From: Pseudomonas fluorescens
Lineage (GTDB): Bacteria; Pseudomonadota; Gammaproteobacteria; Pseudomonadales; Pseudomonadaceae
DNA length: 64,000 bases
NCBI RefSeq assembly: GCF_019212185.1
Contig: NZ_CP078138.1
Span: forward strand, 4,260,501 to 4,324,500
Direction of reading: 5' to 3'
Below are positions 7,974 to 18,767 of this stretch, piece by piece (position 1 is the stretch's first letter; each line of letters begins with the position of its first letter). Under the pieces are notes generated by a model. It worked only from the letters and a program-made list of their open reading frames with translations, did no database searches and had not been told where the DNA came from. A program made the translations under genes and the position numbers.

Positions 7974-9404
7974 TTACCACTGGCGTTTGTCGGGTCTTTC
8001 CAGGCCCAGCTTTTCGATGCGATAGCGCAACATGTCGCGACTCAACCCCAGCAGGCGTGCCGATTTGGTAACGTTCCAGTCGGTCTTGTCGAGCATCTTG
8101 CGCACCATGTCCCGCTCCACTTCCGGCAGGTTCATGCTGTCGCTGCCATTGAATGCCGGCCGCGGCTCGTTGAATGATGAGGACTCGAACTGGGGCAGGG
8201 ATTCTTCCACCAGGCTGTGGCAGACGTTCAACTGTGCCGCACCGACACTGTCGTGAGGCGCCAGCAGCACGGTCTGTTCCAGCATATTGCGCAACTCACG
8301 CACATTGCCCGGCCAACTGTAGCTGAGCAGCAGTTCTTCGGCCTGGGGGCTGAAATACAGGTTCGGCTTGCCGTAGCGCTTGCCGTGCAGGCTGAGGAAA
8401 TGCCGGGCCAGCAACAGCACGTCGTCGACCCGCGCATACAGACGCGGCACCTTGATCGAAATGATCCGCAGACGGAAGAACAGGTCCCGACGAAACTTGC
8501 CCTGTTGCACCATCTGTTCAAGGTTGCAATTGGTTGCGCTGATGATCCGCAGGTCGACCTTGCGCTCTTTCACCGAGCCGACGCGGCGGATGGTTCGGTC
8601 CTCGAGCAACTTGAGCAGCTTGGCCTGGAGCAGCAGGTCCATTTCCCCGACTTCATCGAGAAACAGGGTGCCGCCATCAGCCGCTTCCACCAGGCCCAGG
8701 CGGCGGTCCTTGGCATCAGTGAACGCGCCCTTTTCGTGACCGAACAATTCCGATTCCAGCAGATTGGACGGAATCGACGCACAGTTGAACTCGACGAACG
8801 GCCCTTTGCTGCGCGGACCGTCGAAATGCAGGGCTCGCGCCACCAGTTCTTTGCCGGTACCGGTCTCGCCTTCCACCAATACGGGTGGCAGGTCGGAGTT
8901 GGACATCCGGCGCTCGGCATCGAGCAACTGACAGATGGTATTTTTCAGCTCCAGCATCGGTCCGGACTCGCCGATCAGTGCCTGCACCCCGGATTTCTGC
9001 GCCTCGCGCTCCTGATAGAACGACAGCGTGCGTTCCATCCGCTCTGTCGCCAGCGCCTTGTCCAGCAACAACTTGAGCTCCGGCAACGCGACAGGCTTGG
9101 TCACGTAGTGAAACGCACCCTCCTTCATCGCCGTGACCGCGTCCTCGACGTTGCCATAACCGGTCATCATGATCACTTTCAGATCCGGCGCGCTGACGCG
9201 CAGCTTCTGGATCAGGTCGTGACCACTCATGCCCGGCAACGAGTTGTCCGTCAACACCGCATCGGGAGCGAAGGTACTCAATTGTTCCAGCGCCTCTTCG
9301 GCGCTGTGACAGACGGTCACCTCGAATCCCTTGCGCTCCAGATAGGTCTGGATGTTTTCGGCGAGCAACTCGTCGTCCTCAACCAGCAGTATGCTGTGCT
9401 CCAT
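7974..9404 (-). CDS. Sigma-54 response regulator (MnxR-like)
   Basis: 476 residues: receiver domain (1-120, acidic pair near 10, phospho-acceptor Asp near 52 in VLTDNSLPG, Lys near 104); AAA+ domain with Walker A GETGTGKE (near 178), GAFTDA loop (near 226) and Walker B GGTLFLDE; and a C-terminal Fis-type helix-turn-helix (TDWNVTKSARLLGLSRDML). It activates sigma-54 promoters. The loop is GAFTDA rather than the common GAFTGA, a variant known in some family members. The ATG overlaps the end of the upstream kinase gene by 26 bases, so the two are translationally coupled partners. With the two paralogous kinases it resembles MnxR of P. putida GB-1; orthology is inferred. Confidence 0.92.
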   Translation of the reverse strand: MEHSILLVEDDELLAENIQTYLERKGFEVTVCHSAEEALEQLSTFAPDAVLTDNSLPGMSGHDLIQKLRVSAPDLKVIMMTGYGNVEDAVTAMKEGAFHYVTKPVALPELKLLLDKALATERMERTLSFYQEREAQKSGVQALIGESGPMLELKNTICQLLDAERRMSNSDLPPVLVEGETGTGKELVARALHFDGPRSKGPFVEFNCASIPSNLLESELFGHEKGAFTDAKDRRLGLVEAADGGTLFLDEVGEMDLLLQAKLLKLLEDRTIRRVGSVKERKVDLRIISATNCNLEQMVQQGKFRRDLFFRLRIISIKVPRLYARVDDVLLLARHFLSLHGKRYGKPNLYFSPQAEELLLSYSWPGNVRELRNMLEQTVLLAPHDSVGAAQLNVCHSLVEESLPQFESSSFNEPRPAFNGSDSMNLPEVERDMVRKMLDKTDWNVTKSARLLGLSRDMLRYRIEKLGLERPDKRQW

Positions 9405-10866
9405 ATTCCCCTCCCGCAGCCACTTTAAAGGTCAGACATACACGGGTTCCTTCCTGCTCCTGGCTGGTCAGTTCGACCGAACCCTCAAAGCGCTCCATTA
9501 TTCGCTTGACCAACGCCAGGCCAACCCCGAGGCCGCCCTGTTTGGTGGTAAAAAAAGGTTTGAAAACCATCTGTTCCTGCTGCTTGCTCATGCCTTTGCC
9601 GGTGTCGGTGAGGGTCATCTGCAAGCGCCCGTCTTCTATCTGCGCGATATCGAGGCTGAGCACGCCGCCCTTGGGCATGGCCTCCAGGGCATTGGCGAAC
9701 AGGCTGTTGAGAATCTGCGTCAGCAGCACCCGCTGGCTGACCACTGACGGATAACTGCCCGGGGTAAAACGCACCTCGACATTCGAACGCTTGATCAGCG
9801 CATCGAAGGCACTCAGGGTGTCATCCAGGGCCAGCACCAGGTCGACGGCTTCGTGATCGTCATGCATTGGCCGCAGGGACACCAGCAGCTCGCGGACCCA
9901 ACGCGACATACGGTCGACCTGGCTGATGATGTCGCCAATGTTCTTCTGTGCCGGCGCACTGGCGACATCCTGGGCCAGTTCGGCGCTGGAGCGAATGGTC
10001 GCCAGCGGGTTGCGCAGGCTGTGAGCCACCGCCGAGGACATCTCCCCCAGCGCGACAAAGGTTTCGTTGGTCACCAATTGCTGTTGCTGGGTCTGCAGCA
10101 ACAGCGCGGCGCGGCGCACAATCCAGTACAGACCCAGATAAATCAGCAAGCCACCGAAAATCGTCGCCACCCAGATCGCGGTAAAGCCACGCCGGATGCG
10201 CTCCACCAGGTCGGCCGGTTCCTTGTAAATCTCGACCATGGCGATGACCTTGGTCTGGTCGGCGTTGAACATCGGGATGTAGTTTTCGATGAACAGGTAC
10301 TTGGGCTCGCGCAGCAGGCGTTGTTCCGGCTTTTCATCATCGATTTCGTGGTAACTGGAGGACACCGGCACCTTCATGGCGAAGGATTCGTCGAGTTCAT
10401 CATCGTCCTCAATGCGCACCCCGATCAGGTCCGGATTGGTTGACCAGACCACGGTGCGGTCCAGTGCATAGACGGTGGCCAGCAAAATATCCGGCAGGTG
10501 CTCGACATGATCGAGAAATTCGTTACGCGCCGCGGCCCGCGACAACGGGTCGACATCGGGATAGGCGTAGTCCTGGCGCGGGTCAAGCAACTCGCCCATG
10601 GCCCGGGCTTCGCTGATCGAGGCGTGACGCCGTTCGGCGGCGCCGATGGCCTGAATGAACTGGGCAGTGAGCAAGGCATCGCGCTCGATGCTTTCGGTGA
10701 CCACGAAGCGCGTCGAGACATACCCCAGGCCCAGCGCCACCGCGGCGATGATGAAAAAACTGGCGAGGGAAAACCAGCGCAGCAGATTGAACTGCCCGCC
10801 CCAGCCCTTGCGCTCGCCCGATGGAAAGGCTTGCTCAGGTATTTTTGTGGTTTCCAGCGTCTGCAT
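9379..10866 (-). CDS. Membrane sensor histidine kinase (MnxS-like, copy 1)
   Basis: 495 residues. A transmembrane helix at about 30-50, a periplasmic sensor region (55-235) and a second helix near 240-260 precede the dimerisation domain with the phospho-acceptor His in SSAVAHSLRNPLA (near 281) and the ATPase domain with N, G1 (LTDTGKGMS) and G2 (GGLGVGLALVKRI) boxes. The ATG at 10866 has AGGA about 9 bases upstream; an earlier TTG is less likely. Same operon as the SCO1-cytochrome gene and the regulator at 7974. Very similar to the kinase at 15029, especially around both membrane helices and the His box. Confidence 0.92.
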   Translation of the reverse strand: MQTLETTKIPEQAFPSGERKGWGGQFNLLRWFSLASFFIIAAVALGLGYVSTRFVVTESIERDALLTAQFIQAIGAAERRHASISEARAMGELLDPRQDYAYPDVDPLSRAAARNEFLDHVEHLPDILLATVYALDRTVVWSTNPDLIGVRIEDDDELDESFAMKVPVSSSYHEIDDEKPEQRLLREPKYLFIENYIPMFNADQTKVIAMVEIYKEPADLVERIRRGFTAIWVATIFGGLLIYLGLYWIVRRAALLLQTQQQQLVTNETFVALGEMSSAVAHSLRNPLATIRSSAELAQDVASAPAQKNIGDIISQVDRMSRWVRELLVSLRPMHDDHEAVDLVLALDDTLSAFDALIKRSNVEVRFTPGSYPSVVSQRVLLTQILNSLFANALEAMPKGGVLSLDIAQIEDGRLQMTLTDTGKGMSKQQEQMVFKPFFTTKQGGLGVGLALVKRIMERFEGSVELTSQEQEGTRVCLTFKVAAGGEYGAQHTAG

Positions 10867-10973
10867 AAGAGACGTTCCTGATTGCAATCCGGTTGTATAA
10901 CTATGCGGTTAATACATCACACCAGTGTAGAAGCCATTGGCCAAAACAGCAGACCAATGATGTTATTAAGCCG

Positions 10974-12029
10974 CTACTGCGTAAGACTGATCTCCGGTGG
11001 CATCGGCCCCGGTCGATGGCCGTGTTCCTCGCTGTTGACCACCGGTGTGCCGAGCGCTTGCTGGCGTTCGGTTTCGTCCTGGAGAAAACGCAGGATGGCC
11101 ACGGTCGCGTTGTCGTCCAGGCGCAGGTTGGGCATCGAGATGCGGTCATATTGCTCATACAATTTCAGTGCCAGCGGATCTTTCTCGGCGAGCATGCGGT
11201 CCGGTTCCTTGATCCAGCGCCGCAGCCAGACCGGATCGCGCTGCTGAGTCACACCGATCAGATCCGGGCCGATGTTGCGCATGCCGATCCCCTGGCCATC
11301 CTGCGGGCCGAGGCTGTGGCAGGAGGCGCAGCGCGTGCGGAACAGTTCCTCGCCATTGCTCGGCGGTCGCAGCACCGGCGCGTCGGCATAGCTTTCCTCG
11401 TTGCTAGCCTGCTTCCAGTTCTGCAAGGTATTGGCCAATTGATCGGCGAGAATCCATGGATTTTCGAAAGGCGAGGCCTTCATCCAGCGCCCGCTGGCCT
11501 GGTTGCCGACGATCAGGCTGAGGTTGTGGTCCTTGGTGCGGCCGTTGTCGACACCCTCGATGAACAGCCCCAGCTTGCGCCGCAGATCGGCGATTTCCTG
11601 GATGTCCCCGGTGAGAAATTGCCAGCCCGGGCCGACCTTGAATTTTTCCGCGTACTGCTTGAGCACGGCGGGCGTATCACTCAATGGGTCGATGCTGATG
11701 GAGTAGAAGAACACGTCCTTGCCGACCCGATCGCCTAACAGGTTCTGCACCTGGCGCAAGCGCGCGGTTTCCAGCGGGCAGGAATCCCCACAACCGGTGA
11801 AGATGAAGTTGATCACCACCACCTTGCCCTTGATCAGGTCATCGAAGAAACGCAAGTTCTGACCGTCCTGATTGGTCAGCACCGTATTGGGAAAATAGTC
11901 GGCGCCCCACGGCGTTGCAGTGGCTTCGGCCGGGGTCGCCTGCTCGCCGGCCCAAAGCCCCCCGCCACTCAACAGGCAGGCCACGGCGGTCAGGATCAAC
12001 AGACTCGTGCGGGGGCTTGGGCGTATCAT
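10974..12029 (-). CDS. SCO1/SenC domain fused to cytochrome c
   Basis: 351 residues. Signal peptide (about 1-27), then a thioredoxin-fold SCO1/SenC domain with the copper-binding pair in FTGCGDSCPLE (CxxxC, near 77 and 81) and the third ligand His in DHNLSLIVG (near 168). The C-terminal ~120 residues form a class I cytochrome c with CASCH (near 234) and a Met in SMPNLRL as axial ligand candidate. SCO1 proteins insert copper into or reduce thiols of copper enzymes, so the protein probably serves the multicopper oxidase encoded 18 bases upstream. The fused heme domain could move electrons from the oxidase. Confidence 0.92.
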   Translation of the reverse strand: MIRPSPRTSLLILTAVACLLSGGGLWAGEQATPAEATATPWGADYFPNTVLTNQDGQNLRFFDDLIKGKVVVINFIFTGCGDSCPLETARLRQVQNLLGDRVGKDVFFYSISIDPLSDTPAVLKQYAEKFKVGPGWQFLTGDIQEIADLRRKLGLFIEGVDNGRTKDHNLSLIVGNQASGRWMKASPFENPWILADQLANTLQNWKQASNEESYADAPVLRPPSNGEELFRTRCASCHSLGPQDGQGIGMRNIGPDLIGVTQQRDPVWLRRWIKEPDRMLAEKDPLALKLYEQYDRISMPNLRLDDNATVAILRFLQDETERQQALGTPVVNSEEHGHRPGPMPPEISLTQ

Positions 12030-12047
12030 GGTCGGCTCCTCGACAGG

Positions 12048-14855
<2,808 letters not shown>

Positions 14856-14895
14856 TGCCAACCACCTCGAGTTTTTTGGAGAGGTAATGGCTATG

Positions 14896-14911
14896 AGCAA
14901 TTACCTCGCCA
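14896..14911 (-). promoter_or_regulatory. Candidate sigma-54 promoter of the oxidase operon
   Basis: The minus strand reads TGGCGAGGTAATTGCT, with GG and GC dinucleotides spaced as in the -24/-12 consensus TGGCACG-N4-TTGCW. It ends about 41 bases before the ATG, leaving room for the ribosome binding site. A sigma-54 activator is encoded in the same operon, so positive autoregulation is likely. Confidence 0.7.
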
Positions 14912-14957
14912 CACTGGAGATGGCATCTCGCGAAAGTATTAACCCTTAAAAAAACAA

Positions 14958-14983
14958 GATGTTACAAAATATGTCAAAACATC
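14958..14983. promoter_or_regulatory. Inverted repeat upstream of the sigma-54 promoter
   Basis: GATGTT and AACATC arms separated by 14 AT-rich bases, centred about 85 bases upstream of the expected transcription start. The position suits an enhancer site for the response regulator at 7974, but the arms are short. Confidence 0.35.
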
Positions 14984-15028
14984 ACAGGTGGGAAAAACCG
15001 GGGAATGACACCCGCTTGCGGGGAAAGT

Positions 15029-16489
15029 TCACACCCGATCACCGGGGACAGCCTTGAAGTTCAAGCGCACCGAGGTGCCCTCGCCTTCGTGACTGTCGAG
15101 GCTCACGCTGCCAGAAAAACGCTCCATGATGCGTTTGACCAGCACCAGTCCCACCCCCAGCCCGCCTTGTTTGGTGGTGAAAAATGGACGAAAGGCCATG
15201 CTGCGCTGTTCCTCGTTCATGCCCTTGCCGGTATCGCTGATCACCACACTCACCCGCTGCCCTTCCTCCGCCTGCACACTGATGCCAAGCGTGCCATCAC
15301 GGCCCATGGCTTCCAGCGCATTGGCGATCAGGCTGTTGAGTATTTGCGTGAGTTGCACCTGCTGACTGAGGACCATGGGGGTGATCTGCGGAGTGAACAG
15401 CACCTGGGTTCGGGACCGGGTGATCTGCTGTTCGAACGCCGCCAGGCTGTCCTGGATAGTCGCCACCAGATTCACCGCCTCGGCATCGTCGGTCAGCGGG
15501 CGCAGGGACTGCAGCAGCTCGCGCACCCACTTCGACATGCGATCGACCTGGGCAATGATGTCGTTGATATTTTTATGTGCCGCCCCGTCGTCGAACTCCA
15601 GCGCCAGTTCGGCACTGGAGCGAATGGTCGCCAACGGGTTGCGCAGGCTGTGGGCCACCGCCGAGGACATTTCCCCCAGCGCCACAAAGGTTTCGTTGGT
15701 CACCAACTGGCGCTGCTGTTGCGCCAGCAGCATGGCCGCGCGCCGCACGATCCAGTACAGGCCGAGGTAGATCAGCCCGCCCCCCAGCGCGGTGGCCAGC
15801 CAGATCATCACCAACCCGCGCTCGATCCGATTGATCAGGTCCTTGGGTTCCTTATAGATCTCGACCATCGCCGAGACGCTCTTGCCATCGACATCGAACA
15901 GCGGGATGTAATTTTCGATGAACAGAAAATCCGGCGGATTGAGGAATTTCTGCTCCAGGCGCGTGCGATCCACGTCGTGATAACTGGCCGAGACCGGCAC
16001 CTTGTTATCGAAGGCGTAGTCGAGGTCTTCATCGGTATGAATCCGCGTGCCGATCAGCTCCGGATTGGTCGACCAGATCACCGTGCGATCGGGGGCGTAA
16101 ATGTTCGCCAGCAGCACATCGGGCAAGTGCGCGACATGATCGAGGAATTCGCCCCTGGCCGCGGCACGGGCCAATGGATCAACGTCGGGAAATTGATGGT
16201 CCTGACGCGGGTCGAGCAATTCACCCATGGTCCGCACGTTGGCAATCGACACATGCCGCACTTCGGCCGAAGCAATCGCCTGAATGAATTGCGCGGTCAG
16301 CAGTGCATCGCGCTGGACGCTTTCGGTGATCACAAAACGCGTGGAAACCGCACCGAGGCCAACCGCCACGGTTCCGATGATTCCCAGGCTGACGAAGGAG
16401 AACCACCGCAACAGATTGAAGGTCACCTGTGGCGACCCCGAGGCGGCGTCCTGGTTTTTTTGCCGGCCGAGTTTTATGGGCATATTCAT
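15029..16489 (-). CDS. Membrane sensor histidine kinase (MnxS-like, copy 2)
   Basis: 486 residues, same layout as the kinase at 9379: helix near 28-48, periplasmic sensor region, second helix near 225-245, His box SSAVAHSLRNPLA (His near 278) and ATPase domain with ISDTGKGMN and GGLGVGLVLVKRI. No receiver gene of its own adjoins it, so it probably shares the regulator at 7974. Transcribed toward the oxidase operon but separated from it by 173 bases carrying that operon's own promoter. Two such kinases with one regulator match the MnxS1/MnxS2/MnxR scheme. Start could also be the ATG two codons in. Confidence 0.9.
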   Translation of the reverse strand: MNMPIKLGRQKNQDAASGSPQVTFNLLRWFSFVSLGIIGTVAVGLGAVSTRFVITESVQRDALLTAQFIQAIASAEVRHVSIANVRTMGELLDPRQDHQFPDVDPLARAAARGEFLDHVAHLPDVLLANIYAPDRTVIWSTNPELIGTRIHTDEDLDYAFDNKVPVSASYHDVDRTRLEQKFLNPPDFLFIENYIPLFDVDGKSVSAMVEIYKEPKDLINRIERGLVMIWLATALGGGLIYLGLYWIVRRAAMLLAQQQRQLVTNETFVALGEMSSAVAHSLRNPLATIRSSAELALEFDDGAAHKNINDIIAQVDRMSKWVRELLQSLRPLTDDAEAVNLVATIQDSLAAFEQQITRSRTQVLFTPQITPMVLSQQVQLTQILNSLIANALEAMGRDGTLGISVQAEEGQRVSVVISDTGKGMNEEQRSMAFRPFFTTKQGGLGVGLVLVKRIMERFSGSVSLDSHEGEGTSVRLNFKAVPGDRV

Positions 16490-16571
16490 CCAGTTGGCTT
16501 CCGGCTCCGGGCTCCGGCACCCGTATATGGGTTATAGCGCACTGCCATGTTTTTGCTCGGTGGCGGGCGAT

Positions 16572-16586
16572 GTTTAGCCGCTAAAC
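16572..16586. promoter_or_regulatory. Perfect palindrome, possible activator site
   Basis: GTTTAGC-C-GCTAAAC, about 160 bases before the expected start of the curli transcript, in the region between the divergent kinase and curli genes. An activator site is a reasonable guess; no match to the inverted repeat at 14958 was seen. Confidence 0.4.
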
Positions 16587-16713
16587 CACCCACCCCCCGC
16601 ATCCCCGCCCCCCCAAACCTGGGGGTAAACGCCCTCCCCGCTTGACCACCGGACACCCCAATCTTTCGCTTAAACCGCTCTGGCACGGTCATCACAGGGC
16701 TTTTTCAGGCTGT

Positions 16714-16729
16714 TGGCATGGGAGTTGCC
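16714..16729 (+). promoter_or_regulatory. Candidate sigma-54 promoter of the curli genes
   Basis: TGGCATGGGAGTTGCC: very good match to the -24/-12 consensus, with GG and GC correctly spaced. It lies about 88 bases before the csgB ATG. Confidence 0.75.
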
Positions 16730-16816
16730 GAAGACCCTGTAACTCGAACTGAGCCACTGAGTCCATCCCCACCGGTTTGCCGCCGGTGGATCTGGCCAGG
16801 TCTCCAGGAGCTTGCC

Positions 16817-17284
16817 ATGAAACCGTTGACCCTCACCGCGCTCTGCCTGTCGTTGCTCCTGAACCTGCCGGGTTCAGGAGCATGGGCCGACGACCTGATG
16901 GACAACGACGACCTGGCAGCCGCCACCGATCTGGGTGAACTGCCACCACCGGTTGGCCAGCAAGCGCTGATCAACCAGAACGGCATGAGCAACCAGGCCG
17001 GCATTCAACAGAGCGGCCAGTCACTGCTGGGCAACATCGTCCAGTCGGGAAGTAATCAGGAGGCCTGGATTCTGCAGCAGGGCAACGACCTGATGGCCTT
17101 GATTACGCAACAGGGCTACGGCAACGCGGCCTCGATCACCCAGACCGGCAGCAGCAACCGGGCACAGATTTCACAAAACGGTAGCAACAACAACGCAAGC
17201 ATCGATCAGGCCGGTACGGGGCTGCAAAGCGCCGTGACGCAGTCGGGCAACGGTATGAGCGTTTCGGTTCAGCAGTATCGCTAG
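16817..17284 (+). CDS. csgB: Curli minor subunit (nucleator), CsgB-like
   Basis: 155 residues. Signal peptide MKPLTLTALCLSLLLNLPG... ending near AWADD, then about five curlin repeats with regularly spaced Gln-x-Gly-x-x-Asn patterns (for example ASITQTGSSNRAQISQNGSNN) and the final SVQQYR. In E. coli, CsgB on the outer surface nucleates polymerisation of CsgA; the length and the C-terminal end fit CsgB. AGGAG precedes the chosen ATG; a longer frame from 16718 would start inside the promoter. Operon with the next gene, 31 bases on. Confidence 0.85.
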   Translation: MKPLTLTALCLSLLLNLPGSGAWADDLMDNDDLAAATDLGELPPPVGQQALINQNGMSNQAGIQQSGQSLLGNIVQSGSNQEAWILQQGNDLMALITQQGYGNAASITQTGSSNRAQISQNGSNNNASIDQAGTGLQSAVTQSGNGMSVSVQQYR

Positions 17285-17315
17285 ACCAGGCACCAATCCC
17301 TTAGGAGGTAATACC

Positions 17316-18767
17316 ATGTTCTCTTTGAAACCCCTCAGCGCCGCGATTCTGATCGTCCTCAGCGCCCAGGCAATGGCCGCCAACAGCATTTCCAACCAGA
17401 CTCAGGACGGTACGGAAAACATCGCCGATGTCCTGCAGATCCAGGCTTCGGCCAGCACCACCACCCAGAACCAGACCGGCACGGGCAACGATGTGGCCGC
17501 CAAGCAGCAACTGGCCAGCAGTACCATCGAGCAAACCCAGAACGGCGACTACAACGCCAGCTATGCCGAACAGATCGACGACAACAACAGCACCATCAGC
17601 GTGACCCAGGAAGGCAGCTTCAACTCCGCCCATGCCAGCCAGTCAATCGGCGGCGGGGGCAACGAAGCCGTGCAGGAACAGAACGGCAGCGGCAACCTCT
17701 CGTTCGTCTATCAGGAACGTCAATCGGACAGCAAGGGCACGACCCAGCAGCTCGGCGACTATAACGAAGCGAATATCGAACAGCTGGAGGACGGCGGCGC
17801 CCGGAACAGTGCCCTGGTGATCCAGACCGGTAACGGCAACTATGGCACCAGCGAGCACATCAATCACCAGGACGGCCAGATCGAGATCCGTCAGACCGGC
17901 GATAACAACTATGCCTACAGCGACCAGCGCTATGGCAGCGGCAGCAAATCGAACGTCAACCAGAACGGTGAGGGTCACGGCGTTGAAGTCTGGCAAGAGG
18001 GGCAGACCAACAGCCAGTCCACGATCAATCAATACGGCGTCGCCAACGAAACCGGGATCGACCAGAGCTTTGGTGAAAACAACACCGCCCTGGTGGGCCA
18101 ATCCGGTGACACCAACGCCGTGTATGCCGACCAGTACGAGGCCAACCAGGCGAAACTGTCGATCTACCAGGATGGCACCTCCAACCTGCATTACACCTAC
18201 CAGACCGGTGACAACCAGACCCTCAACGTGTCGTCCGTGGGCCAGGACAACAAGGTCTACGCCAGCAACTGGAAAGGCCCGCAGTTGGGTGGCCAGTTCG
18301 GCAGCAACCAAACGGCCAATATCAATCAATCGGGTAACGGCAACACCGCCAACTTCACCCAGAAAGACAGCGGCCATGTGCTGAACCTGAACCAGCATCT
18401 GGACGGCAACACCGCCACCGTGGTCCAGGCCGATACCAACAACGAACTGTGGTTCGACCAGAACGGCACCGACAACATCCTCATCGCCGACCAGCGCGGC
18501 ACCGGCAACCTGGCGCAAGGCACCACCGAAGGTACCCGCAACAAAGTCGAGCTCGACCAGTCGGGCGGCGACAACCAGGCCTACACCACCCAGCTGTACG
18601 GTGAAGACAACACCATCACCATCACCCAGACCGACAACCTCAACCTGGCCTACGTGACCCAGGGCGGCAACAACAACAGCGCCACCATCAACCAGAGCGG
18701 CAATTCGCAATACAGCAACGTGCAACAGACCGGCGACGGCAACAAAGCCAATGTGGTGCAACAGTAA
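17316..18767 (+). CDS. csgA: Large curlin amyloid subunit, CsgA-like
   Basis: 483 residues behind a near-perfect AGGAGGT. Signal peptide MFSLKPLSAAILIVLSAQAMA. The whole mature chain is made of roughly 20 curlin units of about 20-24 residues with Gln and Asn at the inward positions (such as VNQNGEGHGVEVWQEGQTN and ITITQTDNLNLAYVTQGGNNN), ending in NVVQQ. E. coli CsgA is about 150 residues with five units, so this is a much longer fibre subunit. The export and chaperone genes csgE, csgF and csgG are not in the window and must be elsewhere for it to be secreted. Confidence 0.85.
   Translation: MFSLKPLSAAILIVLSAQAMAANSISNQTQDGTENIADVLQIQASASTTTQNQTGTGNDVAAKQQLASSTIEQTQNGDYNASYAEQIDDNNSTISVTQEGSFNSAHASQSIGGGGNEAVQEQNGSGNLSFVYQERQSDSKGTTQQLGDYNEANIEQLEDGGARNSALVIQTGNGNYGTSEHINHQDGQIEIRQTGDNNYAYSDQRYGSGSKSNVNQNGEGHGVEVWQEGQTNSQSTINQYGVANETGIDQSFGENNTALVGQSGDTNAVYADQYEANQAKLSIYQDGTSNLHYTYQTGDNQTLNVSSVGQDNKVYASNWKGPQLGGQFGSNQTANINQSGNGNTANFTQKDSGHVLNLNQHLDGNTATVVQADTNNELWFDQNGTDNILIADQRGTGNLAQGTTEGTRNKVELDQSGGDNQAYTTQLYGEDNTITITQTDNLNLAYVTQGGNNNSATINQSGNSQYSNVQQTGDGNKANVVQQ

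Follow-up and report, generated by a model that had tools for sequence, protein, structure and literature searches.

A single MnxR-sigma-54 regulon appears to cover manganese (Mn) oxidases, protein secretion and curli in Pseudomonas, a reading to which we assign a probability of about 0.82 from comparative sequence evidence. The stretch of DNA analysed, called here the window, comprises 64,000 nucleotides of Pseudomonas fluorescens (C1:4260501-4324500 of a 6.34-Mb single-contig genome, labelled G000) and carries an operon that runs from the multicopper oxidase gene mcoA to the regulator gene mnxR and, on the opposite strand, the curli operon csgBA. The regulon reading is supported by a palindrome and a -24/-12 element shared among the promoters, by the co-occurrence of CsgB with MnxS and MnxG, by the joint loss of CsgB and MnxG, and by genomes in which the genes are unlinked and carry the same promoter. 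The original prediction, made from the window alone, that one sigma-54 regulator serves both the oxidase and the curli operon is therefore supported, as far as comparison of sequences goes.

A two-part promoter at the oxidase and curli operons

In the window, one -24/-12 element precedes the mcoA operon (TGGCGAGGTAATTGCT, 14896..14911, minus strand) and another the csgBA operon (TGGCATGGGAGTTGCC, 16714..16729, plus strand), both located where the original prediction had placed them. Its description of these sequences as good holds through their conservation and the palindrome that accompanies them; the motif by itself, when up to two mismatches are allowed, matches 43 places in the window against 44.0 expected, and was rejected as proof of a promoter because this count is at chance level. 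About 100 bp before each element lies a palindrome of the form CCCCR-N4-YGGGK, namely CCCCGCAAGCGGGT at 15010..15023 (minus strand) for the mcoA operon and CCCCAAACCTGGGG at 16611..16624 (plus strand), of the form CCCCA-N4-TGGGG, for csgBA, both being putative MnxR sites. The combination of palindrome and -24/-12 element is found in the window at the mcoA and csgBA promoters alone and in none of 100 shuffles, this two-part pattern having been defined post hoc on the basis of the window sites and their relatives. The stricter form CCCCAN4TGGGG-N72-102-TGGYAYN5TTGC has the csgBA promoter as its single match in the window and in the whole 6.34-Mb genome. The significance of the window promoters thus comes from conservation and the partner palindrome, not from the motif alone, and on these comparative grounds both are taken as confirmed.

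Conservation was followed in 106 csg-operon promoters (from the window and from named and fetched loci, three cut by contig ends having been removed) and in 71 mcoA promoters (after removal of loci below 78% identity, without the N-terminus or with a short flank), some genomes being represented twice, by a named and an unnamed locus. All 71 mcoA promoters contain TGGC-N8-TGC, and in 68 of them a comparable palindrome, CCCCR-N4-YGGG, starts 89-113 bp before it. At the csg operon, TGGYAY-N6-TG(C/T) is present in 106/106 promoters and the palindrome CCCC[A/G]-N4-[T/C]GGG in 101/106; in 88 of the 101 it starts 103 or 104 bases before the -24 element, while the five promoters that fail have a slightly altered palindrome and an intact -24 element. 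After thinning to less than 80% identity, 62 of the 67 remaining csg promoters have the palindrome, compared with 14 of 13,400 mononucleotide shuffles. The csg palindrome and -24/-12 element are better conserved than the sequence between them, and GG at -24 and GC at -12 are conserved at these promoters, with GT at -12 in one clade. Koreensis-type loci (L180, L194, L221 and others) retain the palindrome and the -24 element despite an altered -12.

The same architecture is found at other operons of this genome. The mnxG operon encodes a multicopper oxidase of about 1950 aa and, after it, a beta-propeller protein, two SCO-type proteins, a periplasmic binding protein that also has cytochrome c, and a SurA-like protein; it corresponds to the mnxG operon listed for P. 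putida GB-1 (PMC11409713); its promoter contains CCCCAAAAGTGGGG and TGGCTCAGGAATTGC. Downstream of it, on the same strand and outside the window, follows an operon made up, in this order, of a lone receiver gene, type II secretion system (T2SS) genes, assigned by Pfam families for the ATPase, the secretin and pseudopilin-type proteins, and csgEFG. CsgG was recognized by PF03783 (273 bits, G000:C1:4186713-4187351), and the adjoining csgE and csgF were named from open reading frames (ORFs). In the promoter of this T2SS-csgEFG operon, two CCCC...GGGG sites start 88 and 130 bp ahead of TGGCATGAAGTGTGC, an architecture present in 7/7 genomes examined. The lone receiver heading the operon (L104 1694-2230) is retained in G331 despite the loss of the T2SS and curli genes from the cluster.

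CCCCA-N4-TGGGG occurs at seven sites in the whole genome, and a control pattern at none. Three of the seven are the csgB, mnxG and T2SS-csgEFG promoters; one further site lies between mnxG2 and orfA', one within the cytochrome gene of the mnxG operon, and the remaining two at G000:C1 5265582 and 6198866. A first palindrome pattern, CCCC-N6-GGGG-N7-CCC, matched the genome four times, once in a stretch where the oxidase and curli queries found nothing, and was dropped in favour of CCCCA-N4-TGGGG.

Distribution of the promoter and of the genes in Pseudomonas

Exact matches to the compound promoter CCCCA-N4-TGGGG-N72..102-TGGYAY-N5-TTGC were sought in 398 Pseudomonas genomes, 133 of which have an MnxS-type kinase match (E<=1e-60; MnxS+). 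There were 117 matches in 91 genomes, compared with one match for the reversed control, and all 91 belong to the MnxS+ class (91/133), leaving 0/265 among the genomes without the kinase. By coordinates, 81 of the 117 matches lie on the same strand as csgB and at most 8 kb upstream of it. The stretches around the other 36 were searched: 24 stand before mnxG, six before the remainder of an mnxG operon in which mnxG is missing or a remnant, four before orfA in genomes without csgB, one before an mcoA paralogue, and the last at a contig end, adjoining mnxS1. Altogether, 116/117 matches precede curli/orfA, mnxG-operon or mcoA-type genes. The csg matches are no independent discovery, since csg promoters belonging to some of the scanned genomes had served to define the pattern; the mnxG, mcoA and remnant matches and the 265 empty genomes are independent of its origin.

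The genes themselves are distributed in a similarly restricted way. At cut-offs of E<=1e-10 for CsgB and E<=1e-100 for MnxG, CsgB was found in 125/398 genomes, all 125 of them MnxS+. The CsgB+ class takes in G137, whose csgB is a remnant of 41 residues, and G385, where it is matched in two pieces. MnxG was found in 124 genomes: both proteins occur in 124, CsgB alone in one (G387) and MnxG alone in none. McoA-type matches are distributed more loosely, in 119/398 genomes, 111 of them with CsgB, and G185 and G260 have weak matches without MnxS; curli's tie is therefore to MnxG rather than to McoA.

Eight MnxS+ genomes are without CsgB, and none of the eight has MnxG. In the kinase tree, G021, G232, G246 and G277 form one clade, G163 and G331 stand apart and G266 is on a long branch; the eighth genome, G223, is 73% complete and absent from the tree. 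This gene tree, in which the G331 rows are long branches, suggests that csgB and mnxG were lost together in at least three separate branches. G277 has no mnxG, csgEFG or csgBA at the usual places and no mcoA in the interval from mnxS1 to sco1, whereas the T2SS genes, orfA-orfB, mnxS1, mnxS2 and both promoters are retained; the csgEFG and csgA losses were read at the usual places of these genes, the rest of the genome not having been searched for them.

Gene content and linkage of the locus

On the minus strand, the window reads mnxS1-mcoA-sco1-mnxS2-mnxR. The genes encode an MnxS1-type sensor histidine kinase (15029..16489; Pfam HisKA, HATPase_c), an McoA-type multicopper oxidase (12048..14855; Cu-oxidase_2), whose start is probably the ATG at 14855 and not an upstream TTG, an SCO1/SenC protein with cytochrome c (10974..12029; SCO1-SenC, Cytochrom_C), an MnxS2-type sensor histidine kinase (9379..10887; HisKA, HATPase_c), placed as in strains MS-1 and DSV-1, and the MnxR-type response regulator (7974..9404; Response_reg, Sigma54_activat with a GAFTDA loop, and HTH_8, a Fis-type helix-turn-helix). 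The same order, mnxS1-mcoA-sco1-mnxS2-mnxR, has been published for the Mn-oxidising strains MS-1 and DSV-1 (PMC11409713) and recurs in relatives. By its gene order the first operon is therefore the known Mnx locus, and the likeness to MnxS1/MnxS2/MnxR noticed in the original prediction turns out to be more than a resemblance: the window locus is most probably the Mnx manganese-oxidation control locus. The two paralogous kinases, thought at first to surround the regulator, in fact flank the oxidase-SCO1 pair, and the regulator gene comes last. Proteins of P. putida-type loci match those of the window at 62-67% for the kinases and 78-79% for MnxR.

The plus strand carries csgB (16817..17284), for the curli nucleator or minor subunit, and csgA (17316..18767), for a large major subunit of 483 aa. 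Both products contain curlin repeats (Pfam Curlin_rpt, PF07012), and the NCBIfam families CsgB and CsgA, respectively, are their top matches, in each case under the family cut-off. Between mnxS1 and the csg operon, positions 16532-16541 read TTATAGCGCA (TTATAGCCCA in many relatives), which on the minus strand is, judged by eye, a sigma-70-like -10 candidate for mnxS1.

Gene order among relatives is only partly that of the window. Adjacency in the window was rejected as evidence, since csgB was not seen in any of the 29 stretches of about 3-4.5 kb taken around mnxS1 in relatives. Larger stretches place the csg operon beside the mnx genes in 20/29 fetched loci, hand-picked from match lists; orfA and orfB intervene in 19 of these 20, L077 excepted. 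The other nine, of P. putida type, lie away from mnxS and have the same promoter, although in one locus the palindrome deviates by a base. Additionally, mnxS1 is present in 70/70 named loci whose sequence extends at least 6 kb upstream of csg; P. putida-type unlinked loci are under-represented here because the named loci are the best 80 of 168 confirmed, and these 80 CsgB loci are all from Pseudomonas but one, 'gamma proteobacterium L18'. In 42 genomes hand-picked for having csgB and mnxG both on contig C1, the two genes are at most 31 kb apart in 32 and more than 60 kb apart in 10. The mnxR gene follows the mnxS kinases in all 29 fetched mnxS-bearing loci.

The relatives' csg operon is orfA-orfB-csgB-csgA, in 28/29 fetched and 80/80 named loci, while the window strain has no orfA-orfB at this place and G271 has remnants only; with the two genes missing, the conserved csg promoter directly precedes csgB in the window strain. 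A second pair, orfA'-orfB', lies elsewhere in the window strain, divergent from a second mnxG, and the window strain and G271, both without an intact csg-linked orfA-orfB, have two mnxG matches each. OrfA and OrfB (L062 4285-7988 and relatives; L108) are function-unassigned proteins of the csg operon. For OrfA, 1834 relatives were counted at E<=1e-10, and searches found neither a Pfam family nor, by sequence, a relative in PDB. The N-terminal part of its AlphaFold model is of low quality (mean pLDDT 60). Foldseek matches were weak and for the most part consisted of Ig-like domains in a row, with TM at most 0.2 (query-normalised) among the matches listed; the model predicts an all-beta C-terminal part.

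The genome has further oxidase genes. A second McoA paralogue, a 1182-aa ORF (L105 6029-9577), ends in a Big_9 domain resembling the one in OrfB and is preceded by a sigma-54-like site. Positions 1-878 of the window (plus strand) are the 3' end of a gene for a third McoA-type oxidase, which carries a fused Big_9 (Ig-like) domain (L106 7287-10379); this gene starts outside the window and is likewise preceded by a sigma-54-like site. Immediately upstream of it come ABC, HlyD and outer-membrane efflux genes together with an animal-haem-peroxidase gene, of MopA type by Pfam family only, and the MnxG-, McoA- and peroxidase-type genes all fall inside about 75 kb.

The proposed regulon

MnxR is the sole sigma-54 activator in the window and is encoded in the first operon, in agreement with the original prediction; genome-wide, Sigma54_activat has 25 strong matches. 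Over 39 MnxR sequences, including that of the window and with some genomes represented twice, the recognition helix is 99% conserved and the sigma-54 contact loop, usually GAFTGA, reads GAFTDA in 39/39. Published work supports the oxidase side of the regulon: MnxS1, MnxS2 and MnxR are required for Mn oxidation in GB-1, and an rpoN::Tn5 insertion abolished Mn oxidation in MS-1, which complementation restored (PMC11409713). Moreover, the promoters PmnxG and PmcoA are predicted to be of the IHF-sigma54 kind and are Mn-dependent (PMC11930936), and published reporter work describes mnxG and mcoA as active in stationary phase, only with aqueous Mn.

In the proposed mechanism, MnxS1 and MnxS2 would sense a signal and phosphorylate MnxR, which would bind the CCCCR-N4-YGGGK palindromes about 88-130 bp upstream of the -24/-12 promoters. 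MnxR would then drive sigma-54 polymerase at mcoA-sco1-mnxS2-mnxR, in a positive loop, and likewise at [orfA-orfB-]csgBA, at the mnxG operon and at the receiver-T2SS-csgEFG operon, so that Mn oxidases, T2SS and curli would be co-produced as one extracellular Mn-mineral apparatus. We infer MnxR as the binder, the use of sigma-54 at csg and any physical tie that curli may have to the oxide. More tentatively, and at somewhat less than even odds, Pseudomonas curli could be a dedicated biomineralisation fibre rather than a general biofilm amyloid: CsgA and CsgB, usually with the secreted-looking OrfA and OrfB, would serve as the extracellular scaffold on which MnxG (and McoA), exported by the T2SS, deposits Mn oxide, and MnxG and curli would be obligate partners, made only when Mn turns on MnxR-sigma-54.

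Several observations weigh against a single MnxR-sigma-54 regulon. The genome encodes 24 other strong sigma-54 activators, any of which might be the binder, and in the koreensis-type clade (23/101 csg promoters) the -12 element is GTGTA or TTGTA, weaker for sigma-54. Exact compound matches are missing from 42/133 MnxS+ genomes; the scan pattern was partly derived from loci in the scanned genomes, and the genome counts are not independent events, since many of the 398 genomes are related. Among the genes, 14/125 CsgB+ genomes have no McoA match, and mcoA is missing or broken between mnxS1 and sco1/mnxS2 in 7/29 relatives' loci. Finally, G137, counted as CsgB+, retains mnxG but has lost most of its curli genes, and G387 has csgBA without mnxG, its csgG being matched as two overlapping pieces.

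Alternative explanations

The csg operon might be sigma-54 dependent and bear the palindrome and nevertheless be bound by an activator other than MnxR, which would then serve the oxidases only. Twenty-five strong sigma-54 activator domains in one genome leave room for this, and in several P. putida-type loci (L083, L087 and others) a 663-aa ORF about 39% related to MnxR, of AcoR-like appearance, lies upstream of csg; the Fap amyloid of P. fluorescens PF07, moreover, has its own sigma-54 activator, BrfA (PMC9207406). However, the same palindrome stands at mnxG and mcoA, which published work places under MnxS1/S2/R, and the compound promoter is confined to genomes with Mnx kinases, so a separate activator is considered unlikely. 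The 663-aa protein in particular was set aside as the curli regulator; the stretches fetched from the linked loci and from L080 and L091 contain no match to it.

Less probable again is that curli and Mn genes are mere neighbours on an inherited or mobile block, their co-occurrence reflecting shared ancestry and their promoters being independent. The adjacency of csg and mnxS1 (20/29 fetched and 70/70 named loci, as described above) and the 32/42 genomes with mnxG within 31 kb of csgB would fit such a block, but in some genomes the parts lie hundreds of kb apart and are retained together with the promoter. Furthermore, csg and mnxG were lost from separate places with the genes between them retained, and the palindrome and -24/-12 element are conserved above the intervening sequence. 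That the -24/-12 motifs arose by chance and csg is transcribed from a sigma-70 promoter is scarcely credible: the motif alone is as frequent in shuffled sequence and one clade deviates at -12, yet the element is found in 106/106 promoters at a nearly fixed spacing to the palindrome. A common MnxR-sigma-54 regulon remains the preferred reading.

Relation to known systems

Already published are the Mnx gene order, the sigma-54 dependence of Mn oxidation and the occurrence of Pseudomonas curli without a nearby csgD; the probable regulon of this known regulator, curli included, we did not find described. No literature linking the Mnx system to curli was found among the matches listed, in a coverage mostly outside subscription journals. 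Among these matches, the only paper with both mnxG and csgA, and the sole one joining an Mnx name with curli, is PMC3056050, which treats the two subjects in separate sections. It describes csgAB and csgEFG, together with homologues of the GB-1 Mn-oxidation genes, in P. putida KT2440, F1, W619 and GB-1, W619 being without the mcoA homologue, and these strain contents fit an MnxR-curli regulon.

Two questions meet here, namely the purpose of Mn biomineralisation, whose physiological functions are called unknown (PMC11930936), and the regulator of Pseudomonas curli. The apparent shared switch suggests that curli fibres are part of the cell's manganese-mineral machinery; if so, a bacterial trait that matters for the cycling of metals and the treatment of water would carry its own protein scaffold.

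The closest known systems are MnxS1/MnxS2/MnxR, McoA and MnxG of P. putida GB-1 and of MS-1/DSV-1, which comprise the same kinds of genes (PMC11409713, PMC11930936, PMC8218464). MS-1 and DSV-1 share with the window the order from mnxS1 to mnxR, and an mnxG operon of the listed composition lies elsewhere in the genome of the window strain. The main texts of these three papers, as available, do not contain 'curli' or 'csg', whereas here curli has the same promoter type and co-occurs with MnxG.

Other systems are similar in part. Secretion of the Mn-oxidising factor of GB-1 is reportedly of the Xcm/Gsp type (work attributed to de Vrind, 2003, in PMC4509608 and PMC3056050), while the T2SS described here lies between the mnxG operon and csgEFG, the two being likened by gene kind. 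In the Fap system of PF07, under RpoN and BrfA, a -24/-12 promoter likewise precedes an amyloid operon that has a sigma-54 activator of its own; Fap, however, is unrelated to curli, and the available text of PMC9207406 draws no tie to Mn oxidation. Matrix formation is also tied to Mn oxidation in P. resinovorans MOB-513, where the link is the second messenger c-di-GMP and the words 'curli', 'csg' and 'amyloid' are absent from the available text (PMC9765421). In enteric bacteria, curli are encoded by csgBAC and csgDEFG and controlled by CsgD, but in Pseudomonas species except P. stutzeri no csgD is reported near csg, and the possibility of other regulators has been raised (PMC3521004). Homologues of the enteric CsgA, CsgB, CsgE, CsgF and CsgG are found here too, with the differences that CsgA is much longer, the promoter is of the sigma-54 type and the operon of the relatives additionally includes OrfA and OrfB.

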